From NCBI RefSeq assembly GCF_000001735.4, contig NC_003070.9:5394001-5458000 (forward strand): a DNA stretch of 64,000 nt, written 5' to 3'. Made by a program: the position numbers and the translations under genes. The notes below the pieces were generated by a model. The model worked only from the letters and a program-made list of their open reading frames with translations. It searched no databases and was not told the origin of the DNA. Below are positions 27,061-49,584 of the stretch, in pieces; within the stretch, counting starts at the first letter, position 1; the number at the start of each line of letters is the position of its first letter. This stretch comes from Arabidopsis thaliana. Taxonomy: Eukaryota > Streptophyta > Magnoliopsida > Brassicales > Brassicaceae.

Positions 27061-30000
27061 CAGAAATGGAGATTTTAATAAGAGAAGGTGACAGATAATT
27101 GGATGCTGATAAAATAAGTTAGCTATCACTCTAAGAAAAGCTAACTGCGATAAGCAGGAATGATAAGTAGAACTGCTTATAACTACGACTTGATCGGCTA
27201 CATTTCTCGACGTTATCGGCTCGGAATATTAGTTGCCAGCTGTACTCCACAGAGGTGTGATCCACTCCTTCGCGATGAGTTTTACACCTATCTGGAAAAC
27301 CGTCGATTTTGTCAGATGGCGCGGAGGACGGAGATCTAACGGCTAGAGTTTCATTCAATGTGTCAGACTTGTCTCCAGATCCCTCGTGGCACGACAAAGC
27401 TTTTTATATTGAGTCATTGCCCTCAAGTTTGACTAATATTTACGGATATGACATTGAAGAGCCAATTGCTCTTGAGATGCGTTAACTCATCGAACATCAC
27501 GTGATGGAGAAATGTTCAACTCGTAAAGATGCTACGTCGTCTTTCTTCTCGGCGAGATACGAAATATGATTTATAAACTCGGTTTATCACGATTTATACG
27601 ATATGGCTGATGTTCCTCATATAAAAAAAACAAGAACAAAACTAATACTACTAAATATTTCAATATTATAGTATTGTTTGAACATTTCTTGGTCCAACAT
27701 GTTGCTGAACATTATCATTATTCTTTGATAATATTATTCTTTATTTTTAACTTTTTCATTAGAGGTTAATTTAGTGCATGATTGGTTGTGAAAAATGTAA
27801 ACGTAAGGATGTGGATAGTAGTTCCTATTAATTCTTTGTATACACAAGAACCACTTGCATTGACTATTATTGTTAAGATGTTCGTGATAATTTATACTTT
27901 AGTTTTGTTTGTTTATAGATAGATTGCTACTAGGAGCAGGTGGATCGGAATTAGCTGGATTCTTTCCGTTTAAATAATAGCAGGGGAAGGAAGTACAAGA
28001 TACTATAGCTTAGAAGTAATAATAACGCAAGGATTAATTGTAAATGAAACCGAATGTGTATTGTTGAAGTTATAAATAACATTTTTAAAATATATTAGAG
28101 GGGTGAAGATATCGATGGAGGATGGGCAATAAATGAGAGTTTGTGTAATTTAGAGTCGCACGTTTGAGTAATTTGACATCTATCCCGTCCAAACACAAAC
28201 ACTGTTGTCTCACCATCACCACACGTAAAGCGATAACATTTTCAAGTACAAACATAAATATGTAATCGTGATTTACGATTTATTTAATTTAGCGTGTGTG
28301 TCTATCTATTTTTAGTTTTTTTTCTTACAGTAGTTGTCCACTACGACTAGTCTACTACTAACCATCACGAATCGCGAGGTCATAAATCATAATAATAATT
28401 AAAAAAACGATATACAAGTACTGAAATTCTTTAATACGAGCAAAGCATAATATTTTAAGTTTATAACCAGTTTTTTTTTATTTTACTAAAGTGTAATATC
28501 ATAACTGAGGTAGGTTGGATAAACTAATGAAACGAAGCGTTCAAACCATTTAAGAAACATGATAAGTATTAAAAATAAATTATACTATTAGAAATATCTT
28601 ATATATCTTTAAATGTTAAAAATATTTTATTTATAAAAAATGATAGGTGTGAAGAATATATTTTTATATATTTTTAAAAAACTGGATACGTGTTAAAAAT
28701 AATTTAGAAAGCAAACTGTACTTTGTTAAAAGCTTTAATCAAACAATATATATTGAAAAGAATCGTTATGAGCGCAACACAAATATATTCTAAACAAATT
28801 GATTGTAGTCTAATGATTAAGTTAGAATGATATCAAGAAAAAGAAAAAAGTTAGAATAATAGAGATTTTGTCATATAGATATCACAGTTAGAATAAAAAT
28901 CCCATCAAATACAAATCTACACTCTTACTTTTATTTTTGATAGAAAAATTCTATGTATTTTACAAATTTCGGAGAATTTGCTCGTATTAAAGAAAATAAT
29001 GCTATGTGTTTAATTCATATCTTATAACTAAAACATAATTTAAAACTTACTGTATTAATTAAGAGAAAATAAAATCTGACTTATTTAATGGAAAGAAGAA
29101 GAAACAAACTATAGCATCACAATAAATAAATAAATAAAGGAGTTAGAATTGAGCATTGAGGGATAGATGGTGGTTGCAATTTTTTTCTTTAAGTTAAAAA
29201 GCTATCCGGCCAAAAGCAAAGCAAGTGGGTCCCATCCGGCGTATCTGTCCAAAAGTCTCACTATCACGAGATCAGTGACGCTCTGATCAACCTCAGCCCT
29301 AACTTCTTCTTCTTTCTTTCTTTTTTTCGATTATTATTTCCCCATTTAATGAAAACGAAACGTTATTTATTTTAATCATTCACGATTTAATAACGACTGC
29401 TAGTACACATCTGCCTCTACTCTATACCGGTAACTGTGCGATAATCCCCCAAATTGAATGATAAATCCAACTTCAGATTCTCTTTATTTTCATTTCTCCA
29501 TTGACTCTAATATTGAACTCAACTATTGAAATTTTCATTTAGCAACAAAATTTGCCAAGTACGTATGGCCAAAAATATACTCTAGTATTAGAAATTGTTA
29601 TTTTAATCGTCAAGAAAGTGGTCTTTTATTAAGGCATTATTTATTAGTTTTAGGGATATGTCGCTTTCCATTAATGTATGTGTCCCCTTCTCTTACACGT
29701 TCACATAAAGGTTTTATTGCTTTGCCATTTTCCTTATTCTTCCTTTTCTCTGTTTTTTCTTCTTTTTCTTTTTCTGGTTCAAATTCTTCTTCGTTTTCTC
29801 ATATCCCGGTCATATGGCAATATATCGATACTAGGTGTTTGACTCAGTTGGTGATGAAAATATACATATAACAGACTTAACAGTATAACACGAACACACG
29901 TTATAAAAGGCGTATTTTATGGTCAAACAATGTATATAGAATCTTCATATTCATTTCCTTCAAATTCTGGTTAAAAAAGAAGAAGAATAAATATAAGTGT

Positions 30001-30241
30001 TTCTCGCAATTTTACCGAATATATGATCAGCAACTCATGCACCATACACTCTCCAAGAAAAGAAAAACAAATCGATTTTTGGTGAAGTTCTGATCTTGCA
30101 AATCTTTTTGTACAAAACTTAGTGTAATAACTATTATATTTGATGTTAATTATGTAAATTACTACTATTCAAACATATACAAATCTTTATTAGATTGGAT
30201 ATTTTATACATTTCAGTCAAATTAAACGCATATATAATTTA
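27061..30241. other. Gene-poor AT-rich gap upstream of TOPLESS
   Basis: About 3.2 kb. A less AT-rich island at 27130-27420 holds an 88-codon minus-strand frame with no recognised domain and belongs to the distal TOPLESS promoter. 28400-29150 is extremely AT-rich. I found no tRNA, no transposon protein and no reading frame that looks selected. Confidence 0.5.
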
Positions 30242-30576
30242 TTAAGTGTAACAACAACATACTACGGAACCAAGACAAAGGCCTGTTGTAAACTTCATTC
30301 TTGAACAAAACGCAATGCAGCCTTTTTCCCCTCCGACTTCAGGCAAACACGGACTTGTTTTGAAGCATACATGTTCATCCTCTTTTATTCCAGAACCTAT
30401 ATTTTATTTAATATTAGTTCATTCATAAAAATGATAAAATTACGTTCATAGTAAAAATAACAGAATAATCAGCCGGTACCAGAAACGATATCAGATGTTG
30501 AACGACAATGAACATAAGATATAACAAAGAGAATGGTGAAAACAAATGCTATCAAATTCTTTTTGGTGATAGCCAT
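30242..30576 (-). CDS. Defensin-like (DEFL) cysteine-rich secreted peptide
   Basis: Two exons, 30480-30576 and 30242-30381, joined by a GT-AG intron in the position typical of DEFL genes (just after the signal peptide exon), giving 78 residues. Exon 1 encodes a signal peptide ([10 protein letters not shown], then a hydrophobic core ending YVHC). The mature part has eight cysteines at residues 38, 44, 54, 58, 69, 74, 75 and 76, with the gamma-core-like GLCLGSVVC and a terminal CCC. Such peptides act in antimicrobial defence or in pollen-pistil signalling. The position fits At1g15757, recalled as a DEFL gene. Expression and target are unknown. Confidence 0.85.
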
Positions 30577-31713
30577 TTTATGATATTTTCTGTTTACGAT
30601 TTTTCTCTATACTCATGCCCATCACACATCTATATATACAACAGACATGTAAATAGGTATCTTTTCACACACACACAAAAAAAGTATCTTTTATGGTCAA
30701 AGATGAAAAAAAAAACATAATCTTTCAAGAATTTATTTCCATAAGTCAAAAGAAAAATAAAGAAAAGTAATTTCTCATTTAAGTAGGTTTTGAACATTAG
30801 TACTAAATAGCTTTTATTCTTTTTACACACAGTTGGGGGAAAATTTACTTTTTCCTGACTATAAATCTAAGAAAATTAATTGGAAGATTTTCTCCAGTTT
30901 CATCTCTGACCAATGTGCATACTGCATAGTGTTGTTACTAATAAGGGAGGAAATAGTTGGCCTATACCCTATTATTAATTGTGATATATTTTCCAATTTT
31001 TTTTTTTTTCCTATTATTGAGTATATGATATATTTTGTATCAGTTTTATGTAAATGACATGATCAGGAATCCCTTAAATTTCCAGTTTTTAATAGTAAAA
31101 AGTGTATTCTAATATTTACCCTCACTTAATTGTCTTATTTTCGAAGCGATGTTTAGTTTTTTAGTAAAACCAAAGCAAAGTAGATTCCAAAACACTGGTG
31201 TATTAGTACATAATAATACTACGTGTTAACTTTTTAGTTATAAAATACAAGAGTGACCCATACACAAAAAAAGTAAGATCCCACTGGGTTTTGCTCCTTT
31301 CCCACACACCGTGATTGATGGTCACTCTCCATTCTCCACACTCTCACACAATTTCTCGATATTCTCTACATATTACATACCCACCACTCCACTCCCATCT
31401 TTTCTTTTATTACTCACACAAGCATGGGTTTACTTTATCTGTAATATTACACAAATGTAATCCCCATTTCCTCGAATAAAATTTGAAAAAATGAATAACC
31501 CACTGATATTAAATCAATATTTTGTTCTGTGTGTTTTTCACTTTTGACCCTCTTATATTTTCACTTTAATCAGATATAGTCCCTCTTTACGTCTCAACTA
31601 CCTTAACGACGAAGCCCGCTACTTGCACAAAAGTCAAAAAAGCCCCCCACTCACTTTTCCTCTATATATACATCATCTCCCACACAAACACAAACAAACA
31701 TAAACCTTCTTCA
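30577..31713. other. Intergenic between the DEFL gene and the SAM-domain gene
   Basis: AT-rich with homopolymers. The right end (31640-31690) has CTATATATACATC, a TATA box about 50 bp upstream of the SAM-gene ATG. No other gene is seen. Confidence 0.5.
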
Positions 31714-32322
31714 ATGGAAGATTGGTGGTTTTCATGGCTCTCTAGAACAAACCTTGAACCTTCTCTCATCCACGAATACGGCCTCTCCTTCTCTCAGAAC
31801 GAGCTCGAACACGAAGACATTTCTTACTTCGACCACGAATTTCTCCAGAGCATGGGAATCTCTATCGCCAAACACCGTCTCGAGATTCTCAAACTCGCTC
31901 GTCGAGATCGCAAGAACTCTCCTCCTCTCACCTCTCGTTCCATCTCCAGAGTCGTGACTGCGATTAAGAAAACCAGGAAATGTTTATCCGATCACGTACG
32001 CGCCTGGATCCGCCGTGAAGAAGAGTCGGCGTCGTCTCGAGCTCTGGTGTTGGTGCCGAAGAAGACTAGCAACGGGATTGGGAAGTGGAGAGGTGGATTC
32101 CTGAAGAGGAACAAGAGATCTGTGATGCCGAGCAATGGAAATGGTGGATTGGAGAAGCAAGAGAGGTTGTTGTTGACCAATGGGACTCCTTGTAGAATCG
32201 ATAGCTTCTCAAGTCCCATGGTTTTCGATTACAGTTTCAAGGATGAGAAACTTTACGCTCAAGATACTTATTTTGAAGATATCAAATGGGATTCAATGTT
32301 TCAGAATCTCAAACCTACTTAG
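31714..32322 (+). CDS. SAM (sterile alpha motif) domain protein
   Basis: Single exon, 202 residues. Residues ~1-65 form the SAM domain: WFSWLSRTNLEPSLI, HEYGLSFSQNEL, EDISYFDHEFLQSMGI, then KHRLEILKLAR, the canonical SAM helix 5 pattern. The rest is basic and Ser-rich with no motif. SAM domains mediate self-association or RNA/protein binding. In plants a short SAM protein of this shape is of unknown role (recalled At1g15760). The TATA box at ~31662 supports this start. Confidence 0.9.
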   Translation: MEDWWFSWLSRTNLEPSLIHEYGLSFSQNELEHEDISYFDHEFLQSMGISIAKHRLEILKLARRDRKNSPPLTSRSISRVVTAIKKTRKCLSDHVRAWIRREEESASSRALVLVPKKTSNGIGKWRGGFLKRNKRSVMPSNGNGGLEKQERLLLTNGTPCRIDSFSSPMVFDYSFKDEKLYAQDTYFEDIKWDSMFQNLKPT

Positions 32323-32757
32323 AAAAATCTCTAAGTTCTGTTTTATGTTTTCTCTTTCAGCTTCTTCTTCGTTCTTTATATCAGAATTGATGGTGAGAGA
32401 TGAGGTTTTAGGGTTCTTCCACCATGTTTTCTTGATTTTGTCTTTGTATGTGATTAGGCTAGTTAATTTTTGTTAGTTAACAATTGGAAAATAGAGTTGA
32501 GTGGTGGTGTCAGGTGTGTATGTGAGTGTGTGGGGTCATTGTAATGAGTCTGTCTCTCCAGTCTTTGCTTTTGGCCTAAGTCTCTGTTCCAGTCAAAACT
32601 TCTTTACAGCTTTTATCACTTTTTACTCTTTTCTCAAAAAATGCTCTGTTTACACACATAACCATGACGCTAAGCCTGCCGGAGTGATCTTACTCTTGAG
32701 GTAATCGGAAAGATCTTGAGCTCAGGACACTACACAGTCTACACTAGAGCACACAAA
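32323..32757. other. 3' region of the SAM-domain gene
   Basis: Probable 3'UTR and spacer. MED15A-like homology starts at about 32758, where the sequence begins to parallel 37256 onward. Confidence 0.5.
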
Positions 32758-32891
32758 ACATTGTGCTTCCAAATTTTATCTGTTGTGTGTGTGTCAATTT
32801 TCAGATATACCTAAGGGAAGTGTAACTGAAAACCATACCTCAGTTCTTGGCTTCTTGCCACCACAAGTCACAGTAGATTCCATATCTGATG

Positions 32892-34429
32892 TTACCAAAC
32901 CAGCAAAATGCTTGTAGCTATTACCAACGCTTTCCTCCCAATGAAGCAACACTTGATGGCATTGGGGTTGTCTGACGCTTCCTTTTCATGGTCGCCATCT
33001 TGCGTCATGAAGTTTCTTTCTTGGAGATGGCACTTAGTCATTGCAACCAAGTCCACACCAAATGAAGCTCTTGAACCTTTGCCTGGTACTGAACCAGCAA
33101 TCCTATCAACCATGCTTACAACAGATCTAATATCACATACTGCAGACGAAAGCGCTTGTGGTGAGATGGATTTCATCTGAAAACAACAGAAAGCAAACAT
33201 CAAGATCAGAACAATGTTTCCACGGCAAATGAGGGATGGCAGCAATGACACTGCCCTGTTGCAATATACCCTTCAAAATTAGTAACGTTACTTACGGCTC
33301 TAATAAGGCGTTCAATAGGCAGCTCAGTAGCACTCGATTTTCCACAAGTACTTGTCAAAGGATTTATAATATTTCCATCAGGACTGGTAAGCTCCGGAAG
33401 GAGAGGAGAGGCAGAGATCCCTGGAGTGCCAATTTCAAGGGATTGAAGTACACCTTGCCTGATCTGTTGTACCCTTGACCCAGCACCCTGCATGCTCATT
33501 GATTGCATCTGCAGAGTTGTTTGGTCATCATGAGACTGATCTTGAACTGTCTGAGATAGTGGTTGCTGCATAGGCTGAATCTCAGATTTCGTAAGCTGCA
33601 GTTTCTGTACTGTCTTCCTCAGACTCTGCATATTTAAGAAATTCATAATGTTGTTCTTGCGATAATCCATACTATCCTTCAAGTCAGGTTTGATATTGCT
33701 CTTTGAAAGAGATAGGAAACGTAGCATTCCCTCCAACACTGTCTTGCCTCGTTTCAATTTCTCAAACTGATCTGATCTTTGTTTCTGATGCGAAAGAGAA
33801 TCCTCCTAGAGAGAAAACGGAACGTATTCAGTAGAAAAGAAACAAACATATAGATGAACGTTAAAAGTTTACAACCTCTGTAGGTTTGGGAAGGAATATA
33901 TCTGTCAGAAGGTTAACTTCTAGTGAACTATCTGTAAGTATAAGAGTCTGACGAACCTTTTACTTTGTTAAATGGGTAACAAGAATCCTAAGTTGTAGGA
34001 CTTTCATTTGTAACAATGAACTGATCTTGCATTGAATTTGTAAAACTCTTCATAAAGTACTTAGTACTGTTCCAGAGGACGTACACGTGCAAACTAACTT
34101 CCTAGGAAGAATGAAAACTGTAACTTACTTGCTGCAACTTGGCTGCTACTCTCTGGTAGATTTCATTGAGGTCTCTTTGATGGATTTGATCTACAAAGAA
34201 AAGCAATATAATCATACATACGATTACTCATCATGGTGATATCATCTAGTAACAGAGAGATGATCCTGCTAGTAACAAAGGAATAATCTGGTTGTCGTAG
34301 TAATCTTTCAAGTAAGGCATGACATTGCTTCTTTGAAACAGATAGGAATTGTATCATTCTTCGCTCCAACATTGCCTTCAATCTCTCAAATTGCTTTAAT
34401 CTCTGTTGATGGGTAAAAGAATTCTGCAT
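32892..34429 (-). CDS. MED15A-derived truncated paralogue, C-terminal-half type (model uncertain)
   Basis: Four blocks join in frame with consensus splice sites: 34222-34429, 34129-34190, 33296-33805, 32892-33176 (354 residues). Block 3 corresponds to MED15A exon 37814-39097 but is 774 nt shorter, having lost the Gln-rich middle; it keeps IGTPGISASPLL and ATELPIERLIRAV. Block 4 matches KSISPQALSSAV and DLVAMTKC, then changes frame relative to MED15A and ends early. The ATG at 34429 lies in what was the splice acceptor of the ancestral exon, so the true start is uncertain. There is no KIX domain. Introns are kept, so this is a DNA-level duplicate. Probably recalled At1g15770. Function unknown; possibly a competitor of MED15A or decaying. 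Confidence 0.6.
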
Positions 34430-34700
34430 GAATTCAATAAGAAACCAAACCCTACCCTACTAGTTGACGGAACACTAAAGCACCCACCAAAAACACACCT
34501 AATCTCCGAGAAATTAACATTTACAAAAAAAAAAAGGGTCTTTATTCATTTTTCGATCATAACTTGATAGGAGGAGCCTGGTAGAAACAGAGCACCGGAG
34601 TCAACAACATTGAGGATGAGAGTTCAAAACACATCAGAAGAGAGAAGACCAACATAAAAAGAGAGAGAGACAAAATATCTACAATGCATTTCCTTGATTA

Positions 34701-35232
34701 TTATGAGACTGATCTTGAAGCTGCCTTTGCTGTACTGTCTTCCCAGCCGGTTCTTAGCGTAATTAAGAAATATATAATCCGTTTCTCATAATAGTCCCAT
34801 CTACAATCCTTTAATATCGGCATGATATTTCTCTTTCGAAGAGATAGGACTTGGATCAATTGCTCTATGTTTGTCTTCATGCTTTGGAACTTGTCAAAGT
34901 GCTTTGATCTTTGTTGCTGCGGAAGCGATTCCTCCTGAAAAAAACAAACAAACTAGTATTACTACATCTATACAACTTAAGGCAGAGAGTTAATAGTTGA
35001 CAGTAACTACATCTTACATGGTTCAACTTGTCTGCAAGTCTCTGGTAAACATCAGTCACATGTGGTAGATAACGCTCTCTCATGGATCTAAGCTGTATAA
35101 ACAATTACACACCACAATGAATGATCCCGATGATGATTTAAGAAAGGAGTTTTATTATTATGATGATTATGACTTATGAGTTACCTTTTGGAAAACCTCC
35201 TCCCGCCAATCATCTCCATTTTCATTTTCCAT
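34701..35232 (-). CDS. Small MED15A-like protein, central-region fragment
   Basis: Three exons, 35185-35232, 35018-35092, 34701-34934, joining to 118 residues. They match MED15A residues around NGGDWQEEVYQK, SMKETYLPDLNEIYQR and the following QQQRSDQ segment (here GDDWREEVFQK, SMRERYLPHVTDVYQR, PQQQRSKHFDK). After about 60 further residues the frame ends at 34701 where MED15A goes on into its Gln-rich region. Start, splice sites and stop are all clean. It is a second, more diverged partial copy, probably recalled At1g15772. No activity can be assigned. Confidence 0.65.
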
Positions 35233-36445
35233 TGTATCTACTATCTAGTGTTGCTAGCCAAGAAAAATAATTAAAAAGCGAGATTCATTCATCATCAGAA
35301 ACTGTGTAAAAAAAAATACAAAAACCTAAAATTAGAGGTACACAAGTATCATCAATCCATAAAACTAGTTTCTTATGCAAAAGGTTTTGCTATCGACGAA
35401 TCCATGGGTTTACTATGACACGTAATGAGATAGGTGACTCAAAATAAGGACCTTTTGGCGATGAATCTCCGAGACTTAGAACGGTCCGTTTGGATTTGGT
35501 TTTTCTCCAAACGTTCTTACGTTTCAATCTTTCTTTTAATAAGTGAAACGTAGCAATTAGGGTTAAGGAGAAGAATTAGAGATGATTGTTTTTGTTTTAA
35601 TCATCTTTTGATTTTATAGAGAAACAAACAAGAGAGAGCTAAATACAAGGATTAAAAGGCTTCAACAACATTACAATATCAGGTTATTAAGCGAGGCCCA
35701 ATGACCCAATAATAAGTACTTATCAGGCCCAAGTCTCTTCTGCAAATAATAAGTTTTTTGGAGTTTTTTTAAGTTTTCTATTTCACACAGTAAAGGCTAA
35801 AAATCGAGTAAAGAGACTTGTAGAAAAACCAGTGAAATCTCCGGCTATTTGTGTGACCAAAATGTTAATTATAGTCATTAACTAAATAAATCTCGTTCAT
35901 GTACTAATTTGTATAGACAATTACACACCACACTGATCACTCCTTGTATCTTCTAACTTGATGACTTTATGATGATAAATCATCAATAATTACAATAAAA
36001 AAGTTAGCCATTTGGTATATACAAAAAAAAAAAAATGTTTCAAACAGCCATTTTATTGTGACAACTGAACAGAGTAAAGAAGTTGAAACTCTTCTGAACG
36101 ATCTCAAAATGCGTATTACAACAAATCTCAAAATACAACATTCAGCAAGACCCCAAAAAAGGGGTAATTGCACTTCAGAATTAGAAGAAAATGACGAATA
36201 TACTAACAAGATTCACAAAATACATACAATAAAGTTAAAATAATATTATTTAAATATATTCAATAATATAGCATAAGCTTTTGCAAACAGATAACAAAAA
36301 ATCCCAATCACGTGTGTGGGAAAACAACTTATACTATACAACAAAAAGTGAGGAAAAAACTTTTTGGCTTTTTTTCTTTAGTTTTGACATGAACCTGCAA
36401 GTGAATCACAGAGCTGCTATTGAAGACGAGAGAGATCCGTCAGAT
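35233..36445. other. Intergenic between the small MED15-like gene and MED15A
   Basis: GGCCCA-type elements at about 35695 and 35733 could serve the minus-strand gene ending at 35232. The rest, up to the MED15A 3'UTR near 36380, is AT-rich. No additional gene is seen. Confidence 0.5.
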
Positions 36446-39400
36446 TCAGGAAGCTGCTACATATTTCTCCCAAGTGCCGTATTTTGAGCTGAAAGTTCCA
36501 CCGCCAAATTGCTGTGCGTACTCACAGATCACTGCCCGAGCACAGGCGTCCCATGTCTTGGCTATGTCTTTGAGCGACATCGGCTGTGACAAACTTCTTA
36601 GCAATATGTTGAACCTTGCCATAGCTTTGGACGACAGGTCCTCGTTTTCTTTGCTGTTCAAGAAACCAGACCGTGTTACGGTAAGAAGATAACGCAGTTT
36701 CTAATAAAGGGTTTCTAGTAGATGATTCTTGTGAAGATTTTAACTGTATCGTAGAAGTTTGCTCGACTCGGTACGGAAAATCTATGGTTCTATTTACTTG
36801 AGACTGAAGGATTTGCTTGTACCTGGTTTCGACCGGGAGTTTATCTAGAAGAGATGGAGAGCCATTGGGGTAGCTACAAGGAACCAGCAGACGCAATGGT
36901 TGAATAGGAGACTGTAATAGAAGCACAAAGCATATATTATAAAAAAGGATAAATGAAATATTTTGTTTCACAAAACGTTAATGTTAACGAGATGACCATG
37001 TTTACCATTTGTGTTGATGAGAGATGAGCCTTCAAGGCTGGGCTGAGAGAAACAGCTATAAACGAGAATCTAACTGTTGTTCCTTCACACCCTATGCTTG
37101 ATATTGCAACCTCACTAGGATCAGCAGCATCTTCATCATCACTTATCTCAACAACTGTATCTATCAGCCGCTGGTTTATTTCCTTTATTTCCTCCAAAAG
37201 GGCATGCTCGGTCTGCAGTTCAAGATTGAGTCTTCAAAAAAAAAAGAATATCGAAACCTTGTGCTTCCAAATTTTCTTTGTTACGTGTGTGTGTGTGTGT
37301 GTGAGTGTGTGTCAATATTCAAATATAGCTAGGGGAAGTCTAACTGAGTATCATACCTCAGTTCTTGCCTTCTTGCCATCCGAAGTCGCAGTAGATTCTA
37401 GATCGGATGTTTCTGAACCAGCAAACTGCTTGTAGTTATCACCAACACTTCCTCCCAGTGAAGCAACGCTTAGTGGCATTGCGGTTGTGTGACGCTTCAT
37501 TTTCTTAGTCGCCATCATTCCCTCTTGGGTCATGAAGTTTCTTGCTTGGAGACGGCACTTAGTCATTGCAACCAAGTCTTCACCAACGGAAGCTCTTGAA
37601 CCGTTTCCTGGTGCTGAACCAGCTATCCGATCAACCATGCTTACAACAGATCCGATGTCACTTACTGCAGAAGAAAGGGCTTGTGGTGAGATGGACTTCA
37701 CCTGAAAGCAAAGCATACATCATAAGCAGAACAATGATTATATTACAAAACGGGTTTGCAGCAATATCACCGTCCTGCTGCGATATACCCTTAAAAATTG
37801 GAAATTTACTTACGGCTCTAATAAGGCGTTCAATAGGCAGCTCAGTAGCACTCGGTTTTCCAGATGTAATTGTCGAAGAATTTAAAATATTCCCATCAGG
37901 ACTAGTAAACTCCTGAAGGAGAGGAGAGGCAGAGATCCCTGGAGTGCCAATTGCTAGGGACTGAACTACACCTTGCATGCCGGTTGCTTGTTGGCGTGCA
38001 ATATTTCCCATTGACAACGAAGAAGAACCAGGTTTCTCAGAGTCAACTTGCATAGGGGACGGAGCCAAGGGGGTTGAAGAAGGAGATGGGACAACAAAAG
38101 GGGAATTTGCAGGTTGCAATGGAGTTCCCATCTTGTTGACAGTATTTTTCTGGTCAACCTGAGGAGACAAATGTTGTGACATCTGAGGAGATGCACCTTG
38201 CAGAAGTTGAGGCGACGAAACAGCTCCTGGTTTTAACTGTTGAAGAGGATAATTCGCACGCTGACCCTGCATAGAATGTTGCTGAAACATCCCACGACTG
38301 ACATTCATCCCCTGCCTCGATGTTAAATCATTCATATCATTCATCTGCTGTAATTGTGCCGCTTGCTGTCTTGCTTGCAACTGTTGCTGTTGCTGTTGCT
38401 GTCTTGCTTGCAACTGTTGCTGTTGCATCTGGCGCTGTTGAAATTGCTGTTTGAGCTGCATTTGTTGATCTTGCTGTTGCTTGAGGTGCTGATGCTGAAG
38501 CAAACTGGAACTTAACTGGGGTTGATTCACATTCGACTGCAGTGTGCTCAACCCACTTTGAGCAGAGGCAGAACTGTTATTTACTAGTTGAGAAGTATTT
38601 TGTTGCATAGATCCCATGGCAACCTGCTGTCCATTGTTCAAGGTATTTCCTTGGCCTGATTCTAAACTAGAAGCCGGTATGGAACTGGGAATGTTCTGCT
38701 GTGGAGCTGAAACTCCAGGACGAGATGATAGAACATTGCTCTGCATATTTGTCATACTACTCTGTTGTGCCCTTGGCCCAGCACCCTGCATGCTCATTGA
38801 TTGCATCTGCGGATTTGTTTGGTTATCATGGGATTGATCTTGAACTGTCTGAGATTGTGGTTGCTGCATAGGCTGCATCTGAGATTGCGGAAGCTGCCCT
38901 TGCTGTACTGGCTTCCTCGGCCTGTGCATATTTAAGAAACCTATAATCTGCTTCTCATAATAAGCCACCTTATCTTTTAATGCGGGCATGATGTTGCTCT
39001 TTGAAACAGATAGAAATTGTATCATTCGCTCCAACATTGTTTTGAATTGTCTCAGTTTCTCAAGCTGATCTGATCTTTGTTGCTGTGGCATAGAATCCTG
39101 CTCCAGATACAAAAATAACTTACTAAATAAAAAAGAAACAAATACATAGATGCAAGCTACAACTTCTGTAGGTTTGGGAAGGAACATAAATATCAGCAGG
39201 TTGATTTTCTAGTAAACTGTAAGAATACGAGTCTCAAGATTCTTTTTCTTTTTCTTTGTTAAATGGGTAACAAGACTCCAAAGTTGATGACGTTCTTATG
39301 CAATAACGAACCGAACTTGCATTGAATTCATAAAGCTTCTCAGAAGGTACTCACTACTGTTCCAGAGGACATAGACGTACAAACGATTCTCCTAGTATAA

Positions 39401-41921
39401 AAAAGAAAAGAAAATTGTAACTTACTTGCTGCAACTTTGCTGCAACTCTCTGGTAGATTTCATTCAGATCTGGTAAGTAAGTCTCTTTCATAGATTTGAT
39501 CTACAAAGACAAGCAATATGGTCATATGATTACTCATTACAATGATATCTATCACTTGAAGATTTAATAAGTGTAGCCATAATTGGTAAAGATATATAGC
39601 AAACACAAAAAGAGAGAACTACCTTTTGGTAAACCTCCTCTTGCCAATCACCTCCATTTGCACTTTCCGTCTGTGCTGTCGAATCCAGCGATGCTAAGAA
39701 TTATAAAAACGAAAATATGTTCAGCATCATATCCTGCTGAGAGATTATGGAAAATATCAGAACCTAAAGTATTAAAAGGATCAAAAGCATACATGATGGC
39801 ATCTCCGGAAGGGTTCTTTGGGATTGATATAGTTGTCTCTGTTGGTCCACAACATTTTGAGGTGGAAGCAGGGAACCAGTGACTTGGCCTGAAGCTTGTA
39901 GCCTTTGTTGCACATCCTGTTGTAGCAGATTAGGTTGTTGTTGCAAACCCAGCTGCTGATGATGCGATTGAAGCTGTGGCATCATCTGCTGTTGTGATGG
40001 CTGATTTTGTGACTGTTGTCCCTGAGAAGAATACAAGCCATGGCCAGCCTGATGTGTTCGTTGCAGCCCAACCGTTGGTTGTGATAACATGTGCACCGAG
40101 TGCTGGTTATTCTGCAAACTCGAATTGCCAACCTGGGAATTGAGCATCTGTTGTTGTGGTTGCTGCAATCCTGCAACATTGCTTTGAGTGCCCAGTGGGT
40201 TCTGATGCGTTGCCTGGAGGCTGTTTTGTTGAGACATCAACTGCTGCTGGGCCGGTGGCTGCTGTTTCTGCTGTTGCTGTGGCTGCTGCAGTGGTTGCTG
40301 CTGCGACTGCTGCTGTTGTATGTTCATAACATTATTTTGTTGGTTCAGTAACCTTTGCTGATGTTGCTGCTGCATATCCCCAACAACATGCTGCCCCATC
40401 ATCTGCTTCTGTTGGATGCCTGAGCTATTTGCAGCTTGTTGCCGCATTAATTGTGTAGGCTGCTGCTGTAGAGGAGAAATTGATTGTTGCGGCAATGAAG
40501 ATTGCTGCTGATGGATACCAGAGGCTTGTTGTGATTGCGGATGTTGCCTTAGCATCGACGATTGATGCTGACGAAGCATAGATTGTGTCGTCTGCTGAGA
40601 AGACAATTGCGGACTTGATTGCTGATTGGTGTGGAGACCTTGGAGAGGAGCTGAGTTCACAGTGGAGGGCTGAGTCGCAGATGTTGGAACACCAGGTTGT
40701 TGAGATGAATGCAGTTGATTAGGCTGCAGCACATTTTGCTGCTGTTGTTGAATGTGTGATGGCAAAAGCGAATTGGGATTGGGAACATTCCCTGACTGGA
40801 AGTTCTGCTTGAGAAGTTGCTGCTGTAGCTGCTGCTGGTAAAGATATGGCTGCTGTTGTTGCTGTGAAGACATAGCATGTGGCCTACCCAGCATCTGCCT
40901 TTGGGGTCCTGAAAACATGTTCGAGGAAAGGCCATGCTGCCCAGATGAATCTTGCAACATTCCAGCTACATTTTGCATATTGGCATTCTGGTTCACAACG
41001 CTTGTGGTGTTATTATTGGTTATGGAAGAAACAGGTGGCATGGAAGATGGTAAAGCAGTAGAACCCGTCATTCCAGAGGCAGTATTATTCTGCATGGTTT
41101 GGGACAGCAACGGCTGAGGTGCTTGAGATTGATTGGTTGATAACGATCCTGGAAGAAGTTGGCCTTGATTGGTGGGTACTATTCAAGGAAAGGTTAAACA
41201 GCATCAAATAAGAGGAACAATTAGCCATAAAACCAGATAAACAGACTTAAGCAATTCATGCTTGAGAATCGTGATTACTCGAATCTATGGATGTGCCATT
41301 ATTAGCGGCAGGGATAGCTGCGGAAGAACCAGCTGCATTTTGTGATTTAGTCTCCATTGTCAGCATCTTCATTGATATTTTCCGAAGGTAATCAGTCTGA
41401 AAGGCGATATAAAAGAGTATCAGGAAGGTATACATGGATTTCATACCCAACATATTGTGGCTTAGCTTTACAGATACCGAAAGTCAGTTCTTTTCCATGT
41501 TGTGGAGTCCATTGCCTCACAAATCTCTATATTTACCATACTAACGAAACAAGAATATATGTTCATAATAACCTGGTTAAGAGCACCGCTGAAAATTTTC
41601 TCCTCGAATCTAGCTGCAATTCTCCTGAGCTCGTTAATTCCCTCTGGTCCGGAAAATGGAAGGTGCTTCTTTAGTGTTTCCATTCTGCGCAAGTGGCAAG
41701 CAAATAAGTAAAACAAACAAACTAACTATTGGTCAAGGAACATAATAACCTTCTATTTCTGTAGTATTTGACTGGCATAGACAAAACAACGCCGCTAGAG
41801 TGACTTACATCTTGTTGACGATCTTCTGACGAGAATCAGGTGGCAATTGCGTTCTCCAGTCACCTGTATCCATGGCAGGCTCTCCGTTTGGAAGAGAAGG
41901 CCTCCAATTGTTATTATCCAT
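36446..41921 (-). CDS. MED15A: Mediator subunit 15A (MED15A/NRB4), KIX-domain co-activator
   Basis: Mediator tail subunit that links activators to RNA polymerase II; in Arabidopsis it is needed for salicylic-acid responses (NRB4). Eleven exons: 41809-41921, 41573-41684, 41279-41396, 39793-41178, 39623-39693, 39426-39500, 37814-39097, 37357-37701, 37006-37212, 36823-36911, 36446-36653, giving 1335 residues as known. The KIX domain covers ~19-96 (TGDWRTQLPPDSRQKIVNK ... TDYLRKISMKML). Two long Gln/Met-rich tracts follow (~105-570 and ~690-880). Then comes a conserved C-terminal region with ATELPIERLIRAV, the acidic VEISDDEDAAD, and a final WDACARAVICEYAQQFGGG block. Matches recalled At1g15780. 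Confidence 0.97.
37276..37313. repeat. (GT)n microsatellite in a MED15A intron
   Basis: A GTGTGT run broken by one GA, in the intron between exons 8 and 9. A shorter GTGTGTGTGTG run sits at the matching place in the truncated copy (about 32783), showing that non-coding DNA was duplicated too. Confidence 0.8.
38355..38475. repeat. CTG/TTG triplet tract encoding poly-Gln in MED15A
   Basis: Interrupted CAG/CAA codons on the minus strand. A second tract lies at 40245-40320. The mixed CAA/CAG use suggests selection for Gln rather than a pure expanding triplet. Confidence 0.75.
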
Positions 41922-42560
41922 CAAGTTTTCTGTGTTTACAAGCCATGAAGAGCAAAGTATCAATAGTAAGTATACAGAGAAACCAAAACATGACAATATA
42001 ACAACTGATTATCCCAAATCAACAGGAAACAAATGACCACACAACATGGATTAGATTAACACTCAGAATTTCTTATTGATCAGCCAAAATGTTCATTCTT
42101 TCTAATGTTGGTAGCAAAAAGCAATAAACTCAAAACATCAAATAGCCAATCCCACCGGAACGAGAATCCAGGAACTCAAAATAAGCAAACTTTATTACAT
42201 CAACAAAGTTCATCTATTCTCGTAATTGTAATAAACCAGACCCAACTACAAAGGGAGATACTTTATCTTCTTTGGAATCCCGATCAAAAGAGAAAACTCT
42301 AAAAAGCAAGGCTTAAGAACAACAGAAAAAAAAACGAGATTCGAACATTTCACCTCAAATTCAGAGCCAATCAAGGAGATTTGGCGTTTGACGGAGTCAA
42401 GGTTGGTACAACGATTAGGGCTTGATATTAGGAAAACAGAGGAGAAAAAGGGGAAATTGGAGCTGGATTTAGGGTTTAGCTTGATCGAAAAACGAATGAA
42501 GAATATAGGATCTTCTAGGTAAAGAGACAGAGGAAACTTGTTCGCGTCGTAAATCATAAT
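41922..42560 (-). promoter_or_regulatory. MED15A 5' leader with leader intron
   Basis: A leader exon appears to end at about 42355 (TTTGAG before GTGAAA) with an acceptor close to the ATG (ACACAG, about 41931), so the leader intron is about 0.4 kb. A frame at 42246-42557 is leader and intron sequence, not a protein. Confidence 0.45.
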
Positions 42561-42904
42561 CGAGCCTACCAGTTCGCTTATAACAAGTTTTTTTTTTTTT
42601 CAAAATAAACAAAAAAATCTAGTATTAATTACCACATGTATAATTGTATAGTTTTCCCAGTTCAAATATGGTAGCATTGGTGCAAAATGTATTAGAAATT
42701 TGTTAACTAGATAATATGACCACTATTTTTCAATTTTAAATAAATTATATATTTTTCGTTTCATTTTAGAAAACGTTTTAGAAAAGTGATTATAAAGTGA
42801 TAATAAAATTAGATATAATAAAAGTACATTAAGTCACATATGTTGTTTACGTTTTTTTTAACAAAACAGCATTTTTTATTAATAATTTTATAGGTTGGAA
42901 AAAT

Positions 42905-43990
42905 AAACCTTACTAGATTTTAACCCGCGATACACCGCGGAGACAATTCATTTTTAAAAATTAATATATATAAAATTTGTAAATTATTTTATAGTTTACC
43001 ATTGTTACTAAGTAACGTCCTGCCAAATCCGTCCTACCAAACATGTCCTGCCAAACCCGTCCAAAAAAAAAACTATTTATTTTATTAATGTTGATCTTAT
43101 TTATAATATGTTTATGAATCATTGTCAAAATATTTTAGTCGTTGCGTGACATTGAACCCACACATTTTTCGCCAATTGGTTAATATATGTTCATTCTTAA
43201 AATTTCGAATCACAAAATATGACGAATTTTTTTTTGAGATTTTTTAAAACTCTATATATTATATAATGATGTTAATTTTTTTGATAAATTAAACTTTTTA
43301 TAAATTCAAATATTGATAATGTTTTATGAAGTTTAAATATACAAATAATAATATTTAAAAAATTAATATTTTTTGCCTTTTAGGTAATGATATAATAACT
43401 CTAAAAGCAAGAATTTAGAAGATTTAAATCCTTAAATAAATATTTTCATGCCTAAATAATTAATGTCAGTAGTATGACATTGTAAATAAGTTCAAATACA
43501 TGATTTGTTTATTTAAACAAAAAACGTTTAGTAAGAATAATATTTATTTAAACAAAAAACATTGTTTTAAAATATAGTTAATAAAATACGTTTATGCTAA
43601 TTTTAAGGGATTGATGTGAAGTTTGTTTGGATTAAATTTGATTGATAATGTGATTGACAATTTAAATTAAAAATTTAAAGTAAAATTAATTATTTTGGAA
43701 AATATTTAATGTTAATGGCATTGGGTTGTAAATAAGTCCAACTCTAAGATTTATTTGCTAAAATGACTGCAAAAATGTATATGTAGATAGTTAAGGAATA
43801 AAATCCTTAATAATCTGATTTTAAAAATAAAAGCAAATAAAGACGATTTTCAATTAATTTTGAAATACATTTGTGTCCTTTCTTAATTCAATTATTTTAA
43901 CTGTTTTGTTAATGAACTATGATATAAATATAATCAGACTAAAAATTTTTTTTTTTTTATAACTTTTTTATTATAGGGGATTTTAGAATA
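42905..43990. mobile_element. Degenerate AT-rich transposon-like remnant, class uncertain
   Basis: Begins near ACTAGATTTTAACCCGCG, where CCGCG (42925-42929) pairs with CGCGG (42936-42940) around a 6-nt loop, a hairpin type I associate with non-coding Arabidopsis repeats (Helitron/AtREP- or MITE-like). Inside are 14-bp tandem units (43016-43062) and two diverged copies of a stretch reading GTAAATAAGT near 43475 and 43728. There is no coding capacity. Ends are not defined, and the class is a guess from memory. Confidence 0.4.
43016..43062 (+). repeat. 14-bp tandem repeat, 3.3 copies
   Basis: Units CGTCCTGCCAAATC, CGTCCTACCAAACA and TGTCCTGCCAAACC, then CGTCC. Each unit differs from the others at two to four positions. 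Confidence 0.85.
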
Positions 43991-44476
43991 ATCATCACAT
44001 AATATTCATCAAACAAAACACAAAACCGGTTGAAGGTTTTATACATATTTAACAAATGTAAATTTCAGTATCATTACCTAAGAAACAATCAAACTCACCT
44101 AACTTGTCAAGTGTACATGTCCTATAAGTCAAAAGAGAAACTTTTCTTATGACAGAGGTTGTCTATGTGTAAATGTGTAATATGTTGATGTTTTCTGCAA
44201 TATCTTTAGCCGCCAATGTTTGAAAGAGTTGGTGCGTATCAACTGCTCAATATTTCAGTCCAGTGAAACATAGTTTTAAGTTTTCGAAACGAGAAAACAA
44301 CTAGTTTGTTTTTTTACTTTTCACCAAACAATGTCTTTTTTTTCCTTGTTGATTCTGGAGAAACGAGAAATGGTGTTTGATAAGTCAAACCAATAGATAC
44401 ATTAGACATATTTATCTATGCATTAAGTTTCAATGACCGCTTAGAACGACGCCACTTGTTGACTATAGTTGCCCTC

Positions 44477-45820
44477 TTACATAGTCCGCATCTTTAAGGA
44501 TATCTTGCCAAGGTAATCCTCCTGAAACTCCAAATAAAACTGAATATATACATAAAAGGAATGATAACAAGAAAGAGTTCACATGGTATTCAATCAAAAA
44601 TGTAATAAGAAGGTTCATTCATAGGCCCCAAAAGGCTAAATGTTTTTTTTACCAATGCCTTTGAAATCTATCTATTTGATCACACTAAAGAAATAAAAAT
44701 GATGAGCCAAAAATATTCTACTAACAAAAATGATGAAGGGGAAAAAACTGAAACCTGGTTTATAGCAGAGTTGAAAATCAACTCCTCTAAGCTGACAGCA
44801 ATTCTCATGAGCTCGTCAATTCCTTCTTTCCCAGAATGTGGAACAATTTTCTTTAGTGTGTCCAATCTGCTCAAGTGACAAGTATAATTTAGTTATACAT
44901 TAACATATTTATAGGTCAAGGCAATGCGACAAAACGTTATAACCTCCTATATCTACAGAATTTTGGAGGAGGAAATGACTATGACAATGTGTAATGAACT
45001 TACAAAGCATTGATATTCTTCTGGCGTGAATCCTGTGGCTGTTGAGTTCTCCAGTCACCAGTGTTCACGGCAGGTTCATTGTTCGGAACAGAAGGCTCTG
45101 AATTGTAAATGTCCATAAGAACACACCCAAAAAAAAGTTCATCTTATGTGTCAAGTCTAGGGCATATATATACATAAGCTAGCACCAAAAGAAAACATCA
45201 AAATTAAGCACACCAAAACAAGCTTCTGCTATACGTTACATGAAGGACTTTAAAATGTGGGAGAAAGAAAATGCCTTTACTAACCTGGAACCAACGGTGG
45301 GGTGTTATCATCAGCGGAGGAAGAACCAGCTGCATTTTGTGATTTAGTCTCCATATTCAGCATCTTCATACATATTTGACGAAGGTACTCAGTCTAAAGA
45401 TCGAAACAAAAGTAATTAATCTCAAGCCAAAGAATGATCAATGATGTTAAAAAAATAATGAGCTTTATGAGTAGCAAAAAAAACTCAGTTCATTGCCAAA
45501 TTGTGGAGTCACTGCCTCAGAAGAAAAACAGAGAATCACCTGATTAGAGGCATTGTTGAATAGTTTCTCCTCAAATCTGACTGCAATTTTCCTAAGCTCG
45601 TTAGTTCCCTCTGGTCTAATAAATGGAAGTTGCTTCAACTGTGTTTCCATTCTACACGAGCGATCAGTCAAATCAACAAAGTAAAGTAAAAAACCTTATT
45701 TGCAAATTTGATGTAACAAAAACACGAGGTTTAATAATCATAATAAACTCACATCTTATTGACGATTCTCGAGCGTGAAGCAGATGGAAATTGAGTTCTC
45801 CAGTCTCCTGTTGTGTCCAT
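44477..45820 (-). CDS. KIX-only protein with two tandem KIX-like units (MED15-derived)
   Basis: Six exons, 45753-45820, 45540-45651, 45285-45393, 45004-45097, 44755-44866, 44477-44521, giving 179 residues. Exons 1-3 repeat the first three MED15A exons: DTTGDWRTQFPSASRSRIVNK, then METQLKQLPF...NELRKIAVRFEEKLF, then TEYLRQICMKMLNMETKSQNAAGSS. Exons 4-6 repeat the KIX unit again: NTGDWRTQQPQDSRQKN, LDTLKKIVPHSGKEGIDELMRIAVSLEEL, EDYLGKISLKM, then stop. The Gln-rich and C-terminal Mediator regions are missing. It could bind activators without entering Mediator. Probably recalled At1g15790. Splice sites are all GT-AG and the frame is continuous. Function inferred. Confidence 0.8.
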
Positions 45821-46380
45821 GGTGTTGGTTCTCTTCTCTGTATATAACTCAACTTAAAACAGATCAAATATGTGAAAAACAGACCAAATTGTCTTATAAC
45901 ACAACGATTATTGAAAGCATAGATTTGATCCGAGAAAAAACTTGAGGACACTAAATCACACAAAAAAAAAACCTATTGAGTTGAAAAATTATACCGATCA
46001 ACAAAAGTTTCGTACAGTGATCGGCGAAAGAAACTTAAATCCCAGTAACAGAGCCTATCGACAAGACTTTGGGTTTCAGGGGTCAAGGTGGCGACGATTG
46101 GAGTGATAAAGAGAGCGTAACGAGATTGAAATGGTTAATTTGAAAGTCAACAATAAAAAGGTGGCTCGGCCCATTAGGCCCAAATAATTAAGAGTTTCCT
46201 TTGTTTCACTGTTTTTTATTTTTTAACGTCCCTTTTGAATCAAACTGAGTTTTTACTTTTTACATCACCAAAAATATTGAAGACAAATGCATTTGAATGC
46301 ATTACCAAAGTATCAAACTAAGTTTTTAAATTCACCATAATTTTTTTTAATTTTTTTCGCCCTCTTCCACAGTCAACAAC
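45821..46380 (-). promoter_or_regulatory. Promoter of the KIX-only gene with paired GGCCCA elements
   Basis: GGCCCA occurs at 46168-46173 and 46177-46182 (TGGGCC on the transcribed strand), about 350 bp upstream of the KIX-only ATG, the arrangement of site II promoters. The rest is leader and AT-rich DNA. Confidence 0.5.
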
Positions 46381-46665
46381 TCAACATCTTGAAAGATTTG
46401 GAACATGTTTCTCTAGTGCAATTCTCATGAGCTCGTTAATCCATTGTAGCCCAAGATTTGGAACATGTTTCTCTAGTGCTTCCATTCTGCTCAAATGGCA
46501 ACAAGTAATTTGGACATTGTATAAACATCTATGTTTACAGGTCAGATCCTTGTACAACACATTCTGTACAATGAACTTACATCTTGTGGGCATTTCTTTA
46601 GCGTGAATTCGGTGGCAGTTGAGTTCTCCAGTCTCCTGTGTTCACGGCAGGTTCTTCTTTCACAA
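46381..46665 (-). pseudogene. Broken third KIX unit of the MED15 cluster
   Basis: 46570-46665 reads EPAVNTGDWRTQLPPNSR and then an in-frame TAA where intact copies have Gln (SRQK), with a splice donor kept at its end. 46391-46500 matches the second KIX exon (MEALEKHVPNL, INELMRIAL), but a 25-nt segment is present twice, 60 nt apart (46395 and 46455), so helix sequence is duplicated and the rest of the exon lost. No third KIX exon was found. This is a decayed copy of a host gene segment. Confidence 0.75.
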
Positions 46666-47424
46666 GACAAGTCTTTGAATTGCATTAATGTAATTGCACA
46701 AGAAAACAAAACTATTGACCTAGAAAATTAGAACGATGAGGTTCCAGTTTCCTTCATTTATCGGCCAAAAACACTTAATCCATTAATTCTCCGAATCAAA
46801 AGATTCTTTTTGTTAAAACTCAAAGCGTAAATAATAACACAACGAAATCCAAGATTTGCACCTCAAATCCAGAGGCTATGGGAGAGATTCGGCCAGGGGT
46901 GGCGGAGAGTCAAAGAGCGTGACAAATATGACAATGGGGAAATTGAATCATAAAACTAGACTTTATATAATCAAAACTTATAATATCCGAGTAAACTATA
47001 GAGGTTGGTTATACGGCCACTGACTGAAGGTGAGAGGATGAGTACATTAACAAAAGATGGAAAGTAGAACTGCACCATTGTAGAACTGTAGAAGATAATT
47101 AGTAATTATTAGTTACATACATCTCATCTTATAAAAAACATAACAAGAGTGGAAAAAAAAGCGAGAGCTAGACAAGAGCAAAAAACTTGCTACAACCTAA
47201 GAACTGATAGCTAAAAGGAAAAACACAAAAAATCATTAAACATTCAACTCGTCTCCTCTGTCATTAGAATCTTTGTATGCTTCTGCAAAGCAAAGGGAAA
47301 GGGGACGACTATTACCTATCTATAAATTCTTATCCAAATCGTATAGTTACATAGTTACGCGTAGTCTAGAGAACGTGTCACTGACAAAAGAATATTGATG
47401 TGAAAATTGTGTCGTAGTTATATA
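46666..47424. other. Intergenic and 3'UTR of the coiled-coil gene
   Basis: No gene recognised. The right portion (~47230 on) is probably the 3'UTR of the minus-strand gene ending at 47425. Confidence 0.5.
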
Positions 47425-49584
47425 TCAGCTGGTTCCATAGAGACTTTCAGGGCTCGAGTTGTTATCCAGAGCTATATTAAGGTCAGGGAGCAAGAAGGAG
47501 GAATCATCATTCTTTTGTGACTCAGCCTGCACAGAGATATGATATGTTATTTATACTCAAAAGAGTGATACTGTTTTAGTATAACGAATCGGAAAATGAA
47601 GTTAACCTGGAGTTTCTTTAAAGACTCGTTTCTTGCTCTTTGTTGCTTGAGCAGATCCTGCATAGTTGCGAGTTCCTGATTCAAGAAAACAAGAATTATA
47701 TTAAAGATTTGGACTTTTTTTATATGAGAACAAAATGGGAAAGAGGTTTTACATTTCTCAAGCCATTCCTTTCCTTTAAGAGCACACTCTCCTCCTCTTT
47801 AAGTTGAGCAAGTGTCTGTGGACAACCACATACAGTGATTAAACTAAGACATAAAATCATACAACGTTGTGATTCTACCAGAATCTGATATTAATTATTC
47901 TTTTCTGGTTTACCTTTTTCTTTCTTGATCTCTTGAAAGGGCTTGTTGTAACACTCGTTTGAGTTATCTGCGTCAAACCCACCAAACATTCAGATTGTAG
48001 CATGTCAAAAAACACATATAGCACGTTCATTTTCTATAATCAAAACGCTAAATCTAAGACAAGTTAAACACCAAAAACATTTAAAAAAGAATCTTCTTTC
48101 TTGGTCAACAACTTATACCCAAGAAAAGCAATATGAATAAGAAGTGCATCTTTTTCTCCTACCTCGAGACATACTAAATTCGAAAGAATAGAATCACGTG
48201 AATGGAGCGTGATTTGGAAGACTTATACGCGTGTCTCCCCATGACCACGACCCCACAGTTTTGTTGTCACGAATTATCCACATAACCACTTGTCCTTATC
48301 ACGTTCTTTTAATCACAAACCCAAAACTGATGACTTTGTGGGTTCTACTTTGGTAAGATAATTCAGCTTCAACCATAGAGAAAAAGAGCTAAACCAATAT
48401 GAAAGGAGTTAGTGATTTTGACCAAGAGATGCTTCGGAGAGTTTTTGACTTTCTTTTTTCCATGTCAGCCCATTATTACCTATGAGACTTATTATGTTCC
48501 ACGCCGCATCTGATTACACCACAGACGCACCAAACCCCCAAACCTAATCCGCCACGAAAACGCCTCTCGACCCATAAAAGAGGCAACCCTCATTATAAGC
48601 TATTATAAATAACGCCAGACATAACTTCTCTCATTGACCCAACTACCCCTAAAACACACTGCGTGAACGGGGGTAATCTCGTCATTGAATCGGTGATGAC
48701 TGGGTAATTTAACTGGCTTGAATTCAGCGAACAGTTTCAGGAACCAAGCATCGTGACGTGAAACTTGGCCACCAACACCAATCACCATCATCTCGATGTG
48801 AGGAGGCACTAGATTGCAAAAATAGGAAAAAGCAAAGAAGATAGATAGGTTTTGAGTTTCATCTATGAAGAAAAAGAACGTGATCACGTCAGAGTAACAG
48901 AGTGATATTATCGGTCAACGCTAAGTCGGAGTATAGATAGAAAGGCCAAGATGGCGTGACCGGCGAAGAAGCCGATCCCGGACTAAAATGACGTAAATGG
49001 CCTCAAGAGAAACAAATAGGCATAGAGGGGCAAAACTGGAAGTAGTTGCGGAAAACAAGGAAGACTGAGATTACGTGAAAATGGATATCAGGTAAAAAGT
49101 ACGACTAGGCTTCGTTATAACCCGGTGGCTAGTCACCGTCAAAACGCCGCATCCCGAGGGGTATAGTTGTCAAACACACAGAACAGAGTAAAGCAGAAGT
49201 TTCAAAAACTGTTGAACATATAAACCAAAGGGAAATTATCGAACGAACCTTAGATCTAACGGCCTCAGACAGTTTCACAACGCCACTTGACTCCTCAAAT
49301 CCATCAACGGCAGCAGCAGCACCGCCTCCACCGCCGCTAAAAGAGGTTGCGCCGCTCCATGAAAGTGGGGTCGTGGGACTAGCACGCGTATCATGATCTC
49401 CCTTCTTCCTTAACGTCGCCGCCTTGGTCCTCGGCTGACGCACGCTCCACTTCAGCTTGAGATCCGACGCGCCGCCGCTCTTCGTCTCAGGAAGTGACGG
49501 CTCGGCATGGAGGAGACAGATCAGAGCCTCCGCCACTAATGAATCATCACCCATAGCCTCGTGAATCCAGTCTCCGCCGGTCAT
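47425..49584 (-). CDS. Small basic/coiled-coil protein with EAR-like DLN motif
   Basis: Five exons, 49249-49584, 47914-47967, 47753-47815, 47607-47675, 47425-47526, giving 207 residues. The N-terminal exon is conserved-looking (MTGGDWIHEAM, SLVAEALICLL, SPTTPLSWSG) with a Gly/Ala-rich linker. Exon 2 has a nuclear-signal-like SPFKRSRKKK. Exons 3-4 form a short coiled coil (LAQLKEEESVLLKERNGLRN, then ELATMQDLLKQQ). The last exon contains LLPDLNIAL, an EAR-like repression motif. Intron 1 is 1.28 kb. Recalled as At1g15800, with a paralogue At1g80610, both unnamed. Nuclear repressor activity is inference from the motif. Confidence 0.85.
47968..49248 (-). other. Long first intron of the coiled-coil gene
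   Basis: 1.28 kb, far longer than the other introns here (75-200 nt). It contains a less AT-rich island (48600-48890) that is open on the minus strand for 94 codons and includes HIEMMVIGVGGQVSRHD. No splice-consistent exon that keeps the frame was found. It may hold regulatory sequence, an alternative exon or an alternative promoter. Confidence 0.4.

Follow-up and report, generated by a model that had tools for sequence, protein, structure and literature searches.

An array of partial MED15A duplications in Arabidopsis and its double-KIX member AT1G15790, a candidate decoy for MED15A ligands

Plants are already known to have both standalone and tandem KIX proteins. Tandem KIX proteins are noted in a review (PMC3936767), AT1G15790 itself belongs to the training set of KIXBASE (Thakur and colleagues), and it has served as a known example of the KIX domain (PMC5668377). 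In the passages on KIXBASE and on tandem KIX proteins, AT1G15790 is not discussed as competing with the adjacent MED15A (AT1G15780), and we found no such proposal in the literature searched, which was mostly accessible without subscription. A second group of described systems, the microProteins, is delimited by size in miPFinder (at most 140 amino acids), a limit that the same paper terms arbitrary and that known microProteins of 148 and 161 amino acids exceed (PMC5381583). Here we analyze AT1G15790, MED15A and the copies around them in a window of 64,000 nucleotides of Arabidopsis thaliana chromosome 1 (NC_003070.9, positions 5,394,001 to 5,458,000); coordinates count from its first letter. 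The best explanation of the whole is an array of partial duplications with AT1G15790 as a double-KIX decoy and with copies left of MED15A that have no role at the Mediator tail. Taken together, we put this just short of even odds, and the parts are graded separately below.

MED15A is flanked on both sides by partial minus-strand copies of itself (Table 1). The flanks gave 13 blastn matches to MED15A with E values from 0 to 4e-5, a similarity far beyond chance. In its anatomy and origin the cluster is very probably a set of local, partial MED15A duplications. An earlier note, made from the letters of this DNA, had described MED15A as split into small copies, and the spliced models, the domains and the blastn matches bear this out. 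Gene names were taken from published gene lists (PMC11178574, PMC5668377) and from gene order; the exact coordinates are models of this analysis. The KIX_2 profile, searched exon by exon against the whole genome, matched nine times, a search that can miss weaker KIX copies such as a diverged one on Chr2. Eight of the nine matches lie inside the window and one on Chr3, which falls short of the cut-off; the five that exceed it are in MED15A (three) and AT1G15790 (two).

AT1G15790 has an intact frame, and all five of its introns are GT-AG. The earlier note had placed here a 179-residue gene with two KIX-like units, and both units match Pfam KIX_2 (PF16987) well above the cut-off of 25.6 bits (KIX1, 112.1 bits; KIX2, 86.0 bits). 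Amino-acid identity to the MED15A KIX is 73% for KIX1 (83 codons) and 65% for KIX2 (71 codons). Searched alone, each unit matches the solved MED15a KIX structure (PDB 9zjn_C; E 3.3e-34 for KIX1 and 6.9e-25 for KIX2), and the full 179 amino acids returned one 9zjn_C stretch only. The gene was also rightly called KIX-only and free of a Mediator-binding part: the Q-rich, central and Med15_C regions of MED15A are absent, and Pfam finds no domain over its cut-off besides the two KIX units. KIX2 has a weak HLH match (15.8 bits, below the cut-off of 20.7), a possible reason for the bHLH label given to AT1G15790 in print (PMC5862824), which is better read as KIX. Because KIX2 has its own ATG, from which its N-terminus resembles that of MED15A, and because retention of intron 3 would stop KIX1 at 97 amino acids, AT1G15790 seems to consist of two former single-KIX copies fused by splicing.

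In MED15A, whose 10 introns are all GT-AG, the KIX domain occupies exons 1-3 (residues 1-114, KIX_2, 132 bits), followed by a Q-rich exon 4, a central module in exons 5-7 and the Med15_C region in exons 9-11 (33.1 bits, cut-off 23.9). The last three exons had no match in PDB at E up to 1, and the central module had two that we take as chance (best E 0.34). Yeast Med15 needs its C-terminal end to associate with Mediator (PMC7094212), and we infer that the same holds in Arabidopsis. The KIX domain is the ligand-binding end: it binds the DELLA activation domain, with a physiological effect (PMC11714745), and point mutants in the KIX of NRB4/MED15A do not perceive salicylic acid (PMC5533460). A fragment of the DELLA protein RGA, searched against PDB, retrieved nine sequences at E up to 10, and 9zjn was not among them.

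Published data establish that AT1G15790 is transcribed. It was cloned from seedling cDNA (PMC8745574); in sr1 its expression is misregulated, with no binding at its promoter (PMC4890006), and one study reports its induction in syncytia and giant cells (PMC5862824). The 19-20 kDa protein would fold as two KIX bundles, and these may bind activation domains such as those received by the MED15A KIX. Without Med15_C it would have no link to Mediator and would hold such ligands away from it, and recruitment of MED15A would be weakly lowered or re-routed wherever AT1G15790 is expressed. The intact frame, the published transcripts and the good KIX matches favour this decoy role, which we regard as possible but doubtful, its folding, binding and competition being predicted from the sequence. 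If it is true, local duplication would have set a natural competitor beside a Mediator coactivator on which the salicylic acid response depends. A narrower version, which we consider unlikely, would make AT1G15790 a rapidly evolving double-KIX decoy derived from MED15A, a decoy whose two units diverged separately and hold different subsets of MED15A ligands while the MED15A KIX kept its sequence. Possible settings would be salicylic acid signalling, DELLA signalling or nematode feeding cells, where induction of the gene is reported, and a coactivator would then have given rise to an antagonist of itself in its own neighbourhood.

To describe selection on the KIX units, we computed ratios of nonsynonymous to synonymous change (dN/dS, or w). 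KIX1 has a pairwise value to MED15A of 0.37 (bootstrap 0.19-0.70) and KIX2 one of 0.30 (0.14-0.58), figures that mix change on both sides of each pair. Among 71 residues compared across the three sequences, 32 are common to all and 5 are different in each; MED15A alone departs at 2, KIX1 alone at 14 and KIX2 alone at 18. Fitted to the three-taxon tree, a branch model puts w at 0.01 for MED15A, 0.77 for KIX1 and 0.51 for KIX2, and a single common w is rejected (P 0.032). Between the KIX copies, exons are 63-81% identical over their first 120 nucleotides, and first introns are 53-61% identical in five pairs forced into global alignment.

Several of these observations weigh against a decoy. The amino-acid change in the KIX is almost all on the AT1G15790 side. 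A value of w=1 is not rejected for KIX1 (P 0.66), for KIX2 (P 0.14) or for both together (P 0.27), in tests whose few codons give low power; the copies' w is thus indistinguishable from 1 and compatible with relaxed constraint or recent loss of function. The sequence is equally compatible with a KIX1-KIX2 fusion, KIX1 alone or KIX2 alone as the product. A protein of 179 amino acids with two domains rather than one is neutral to titration at best, and all 179 residues hold neither a motif like a nuclear localization signal (K-K/R-x-K/R) nor an EAR motif (LxLxL or DLNxxP). The same ratios suit a reading to which we give somewhat less than an even chance, in which every flanking copy, AT1G15790 included, is decaying debris of tandem duplication, transcribed incidentally and yielding inert proteins. 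It also fits the w of 0.56 between KIX1 and KIX2 (bootstrap 0.27-1.01), the dead KIX and the damaged AT1G15770 nearby, and the w of 0.97 in exon 7 of AT1G15772. Against it stands the preservation of the 179-codon frame together with all five introns. When neutral change was simulated with the fitted branch lengths, only 0.8% of 4000 runs left the AT1G15790 frame free of stops (4.5-5.4% at half the lengths), and 0 to 0.15% also kept the splice sites and frame, in a simulation that is crude and for a gene picked because it is intact. AT1G15790 might instead join a transcription factor to a partner outside Mediator, as KIX8 and KIX9 do as adaptors for TOPLESS and PPD (PMC5814100). Two KIX units could bridge two ligands, but the missing EAR motif counts against such an adaptor too, and we think it improbable.

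The copies left of MED15A bear on a further proposal of the earlier note, that C-terminal-only proteins compete for the Mediator tail. Truncated minus-strand copies are indeed present there and carry the middle region, but neither holds the C-terminal Med15_C region. AT1G15772 (34701-35232), assigned to a middle or C-terminal region, has the central helical module and nothing else of MED15A (53% amino-acid identity over 102 codons); a 4-nucleotide insertion makes its last residues unlike MED15A, and Pfam finds no Med15_C in it at E up to 0.1. What had been taken as one C-terminal copy at 32892-34429 is an exon-7 fragment (34427-34303) followed by a copy of exons 6-8 (34190-32839), the latter being AT1G15770. 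Its exon 6 has a 13-nucleotide deletion, its exon 7 a net loss of 780 nucleotides from the Q-rich part, and its exon 8 an 8-nucleotide deletion and a 1-nucleotide insertion, so that frameshifting indels lie in two exons (6 and 8). Similarity to MED15A ends at 32756, within the intron after exon 8, and blastn of the flanks found no counterpart of exons 9-11 left of MED15A. In a protein search of the genome the last MED15A exon matched three places (MED15A, Chr3 and Chr2), none at AT1G15770. The reading of AT1G15770 exons 7 and 8 (264 amino acids) hit no Pfam family at E up to 1, and the N-terminal KIX is also absent, all eight genome matches of a KIX query lying at 41-47 kb of the window.

A review table lists AT1G15770 as the Mediator subunit MED15b (PMC9181133), which would favour competition at the tail. 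So would the start of its exon 8, where the first 61 codons have a pairwise w to MED15A of 0.22 (0.08-0.60); that part was therefore under constraint for some time, which weighs against a plain relic. In exon 7, w is 2.08 for AT1G15770 and, as for AT1G15772, not different from 1. Because they lack the Med15_C region, which yeast Med15 needs for association with Mediator, the left copies make poor contenders for competition at the tail. The frameshifts in AT1G15770 also count against the proposal, which the sequence already contradicts. We rejected tail competition on domain content and consider it extremely unlikely; most likely the left copies have no role at the Mediator tail. The MED15b entry rests on a truncated relative of MED15A, and some caution is due towards a listed subunit that has neither KIX nor Med15_C.

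Upstream of AT1G15790, the dead KIX unit of the earlier note proved to be one. Its in-frame stop lies inside the first exon, and exon 3 was not found. Read with X at the stop, it scores 41.2 bits against KIX_2 over 44 residues, and the end of its helix 2 has given way to an exact direct repeat of 27 nucleotides (46393-46419 and 46453-46479).

Table 1. Positions in the window of MED15A, its partial copies and their alternative readings
Feature	Position	Strand	Description
AT1G15770 ('MED15b')	32756..34243	-	copy of exons 6-8 and flanking intron
Exon-7-start fragment	34303..34427	-	9-nt deletion, 3-nt and 1-nt insertions
AT1G15772	34701..35232	-	stop-free frame of 118 aa in three exons, copied from exons 5, 6 and the start of 7
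MED15A (AT1G15780), coding part	36447..41921	-	11 exons, 1335 aa, spliced model
AT1G15790	44477..45820	-	six exons, 179 aa; KIX1 = exons 1-3, KIX2 = exons 4-6
Alternative KIX2 reading, own ATG at 45116	44477..45116	-	89 aa, single KIX
Dead KIX remnant	46381..46660	-	exon 1, partial exon 2; in-frame stop

Other features were seen in and around the array. An element of ~875 bp at 42913-43787, between MED15A and AT1G15790 and upstream of MED15A, has at least 40 further long matches in the genome at 83-95% identity (40 scored of 605 candidates). On the minus strand it starts with TC and terminates in a hairpin plus CTAG, between A and T; in this it resembles a non-autonomous Helitron. An Rfam scan of 30000-48000 of the window gave no match at gathering scores. 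Two more MED15-like loci, Chr3:11751501-11761500 and Chr2:4013201-4023200, match the last exon of MED15A (54% and 51%), its central module and its exon 8; the Chr2 gene, consistent with AT2G10440 (MED15c), carries a KIX exon 1 that has diverged. The Med15_C profile matched the genome once, on Chr3 and below the cut-off, a search that is uninformative since it missed MED15A itself because introns split the domain. At the left edge of the cluster, a single-nucleotide polymorphism for primary root length from a genome-wide association study (Chr1:5,426,133), assigned to the SAM-domain gene AT1G15760 (PMC11178574), falls at window position 32133, inside an open frame (31570-32322) that adjoins the cluster.

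Two known systems serve as analogies only. Like AT1G15790, KIX8 and KIX9 of Arabidopsis are KIX proteins outside the set of Mediator subunits. They carry an EAR motif and recruit TOPLESS to PPD, whereas AT1G15790 is without that motif. In Candida albicans, amplification of TLO (Med2) turned copies of a tail subunit into a pool of protein outside Mediator, a proposed competitor (PMC5065183). Tlo still binds Mediator and retains an activation domain; in AT1G15790 the Mediator-binding part is absent. MicroProteins differ from AT1G15790 in that its interference is putative, that it has two domains and that KIX is a ligand-docking rather than a dimerisation domain. With 179 amino acids it lies above the miPFinder limit, single-KIX readings of 97 and 89 amino acids being possible. 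Its kinship to a larger multi-domain protein is clear from both units (73% and 65%), and it resembles LITTLE ZIPPER and miP1a/b in being a small relative of a larger protein that carries only an interaction domain and that would have originated by duplication and truncation.

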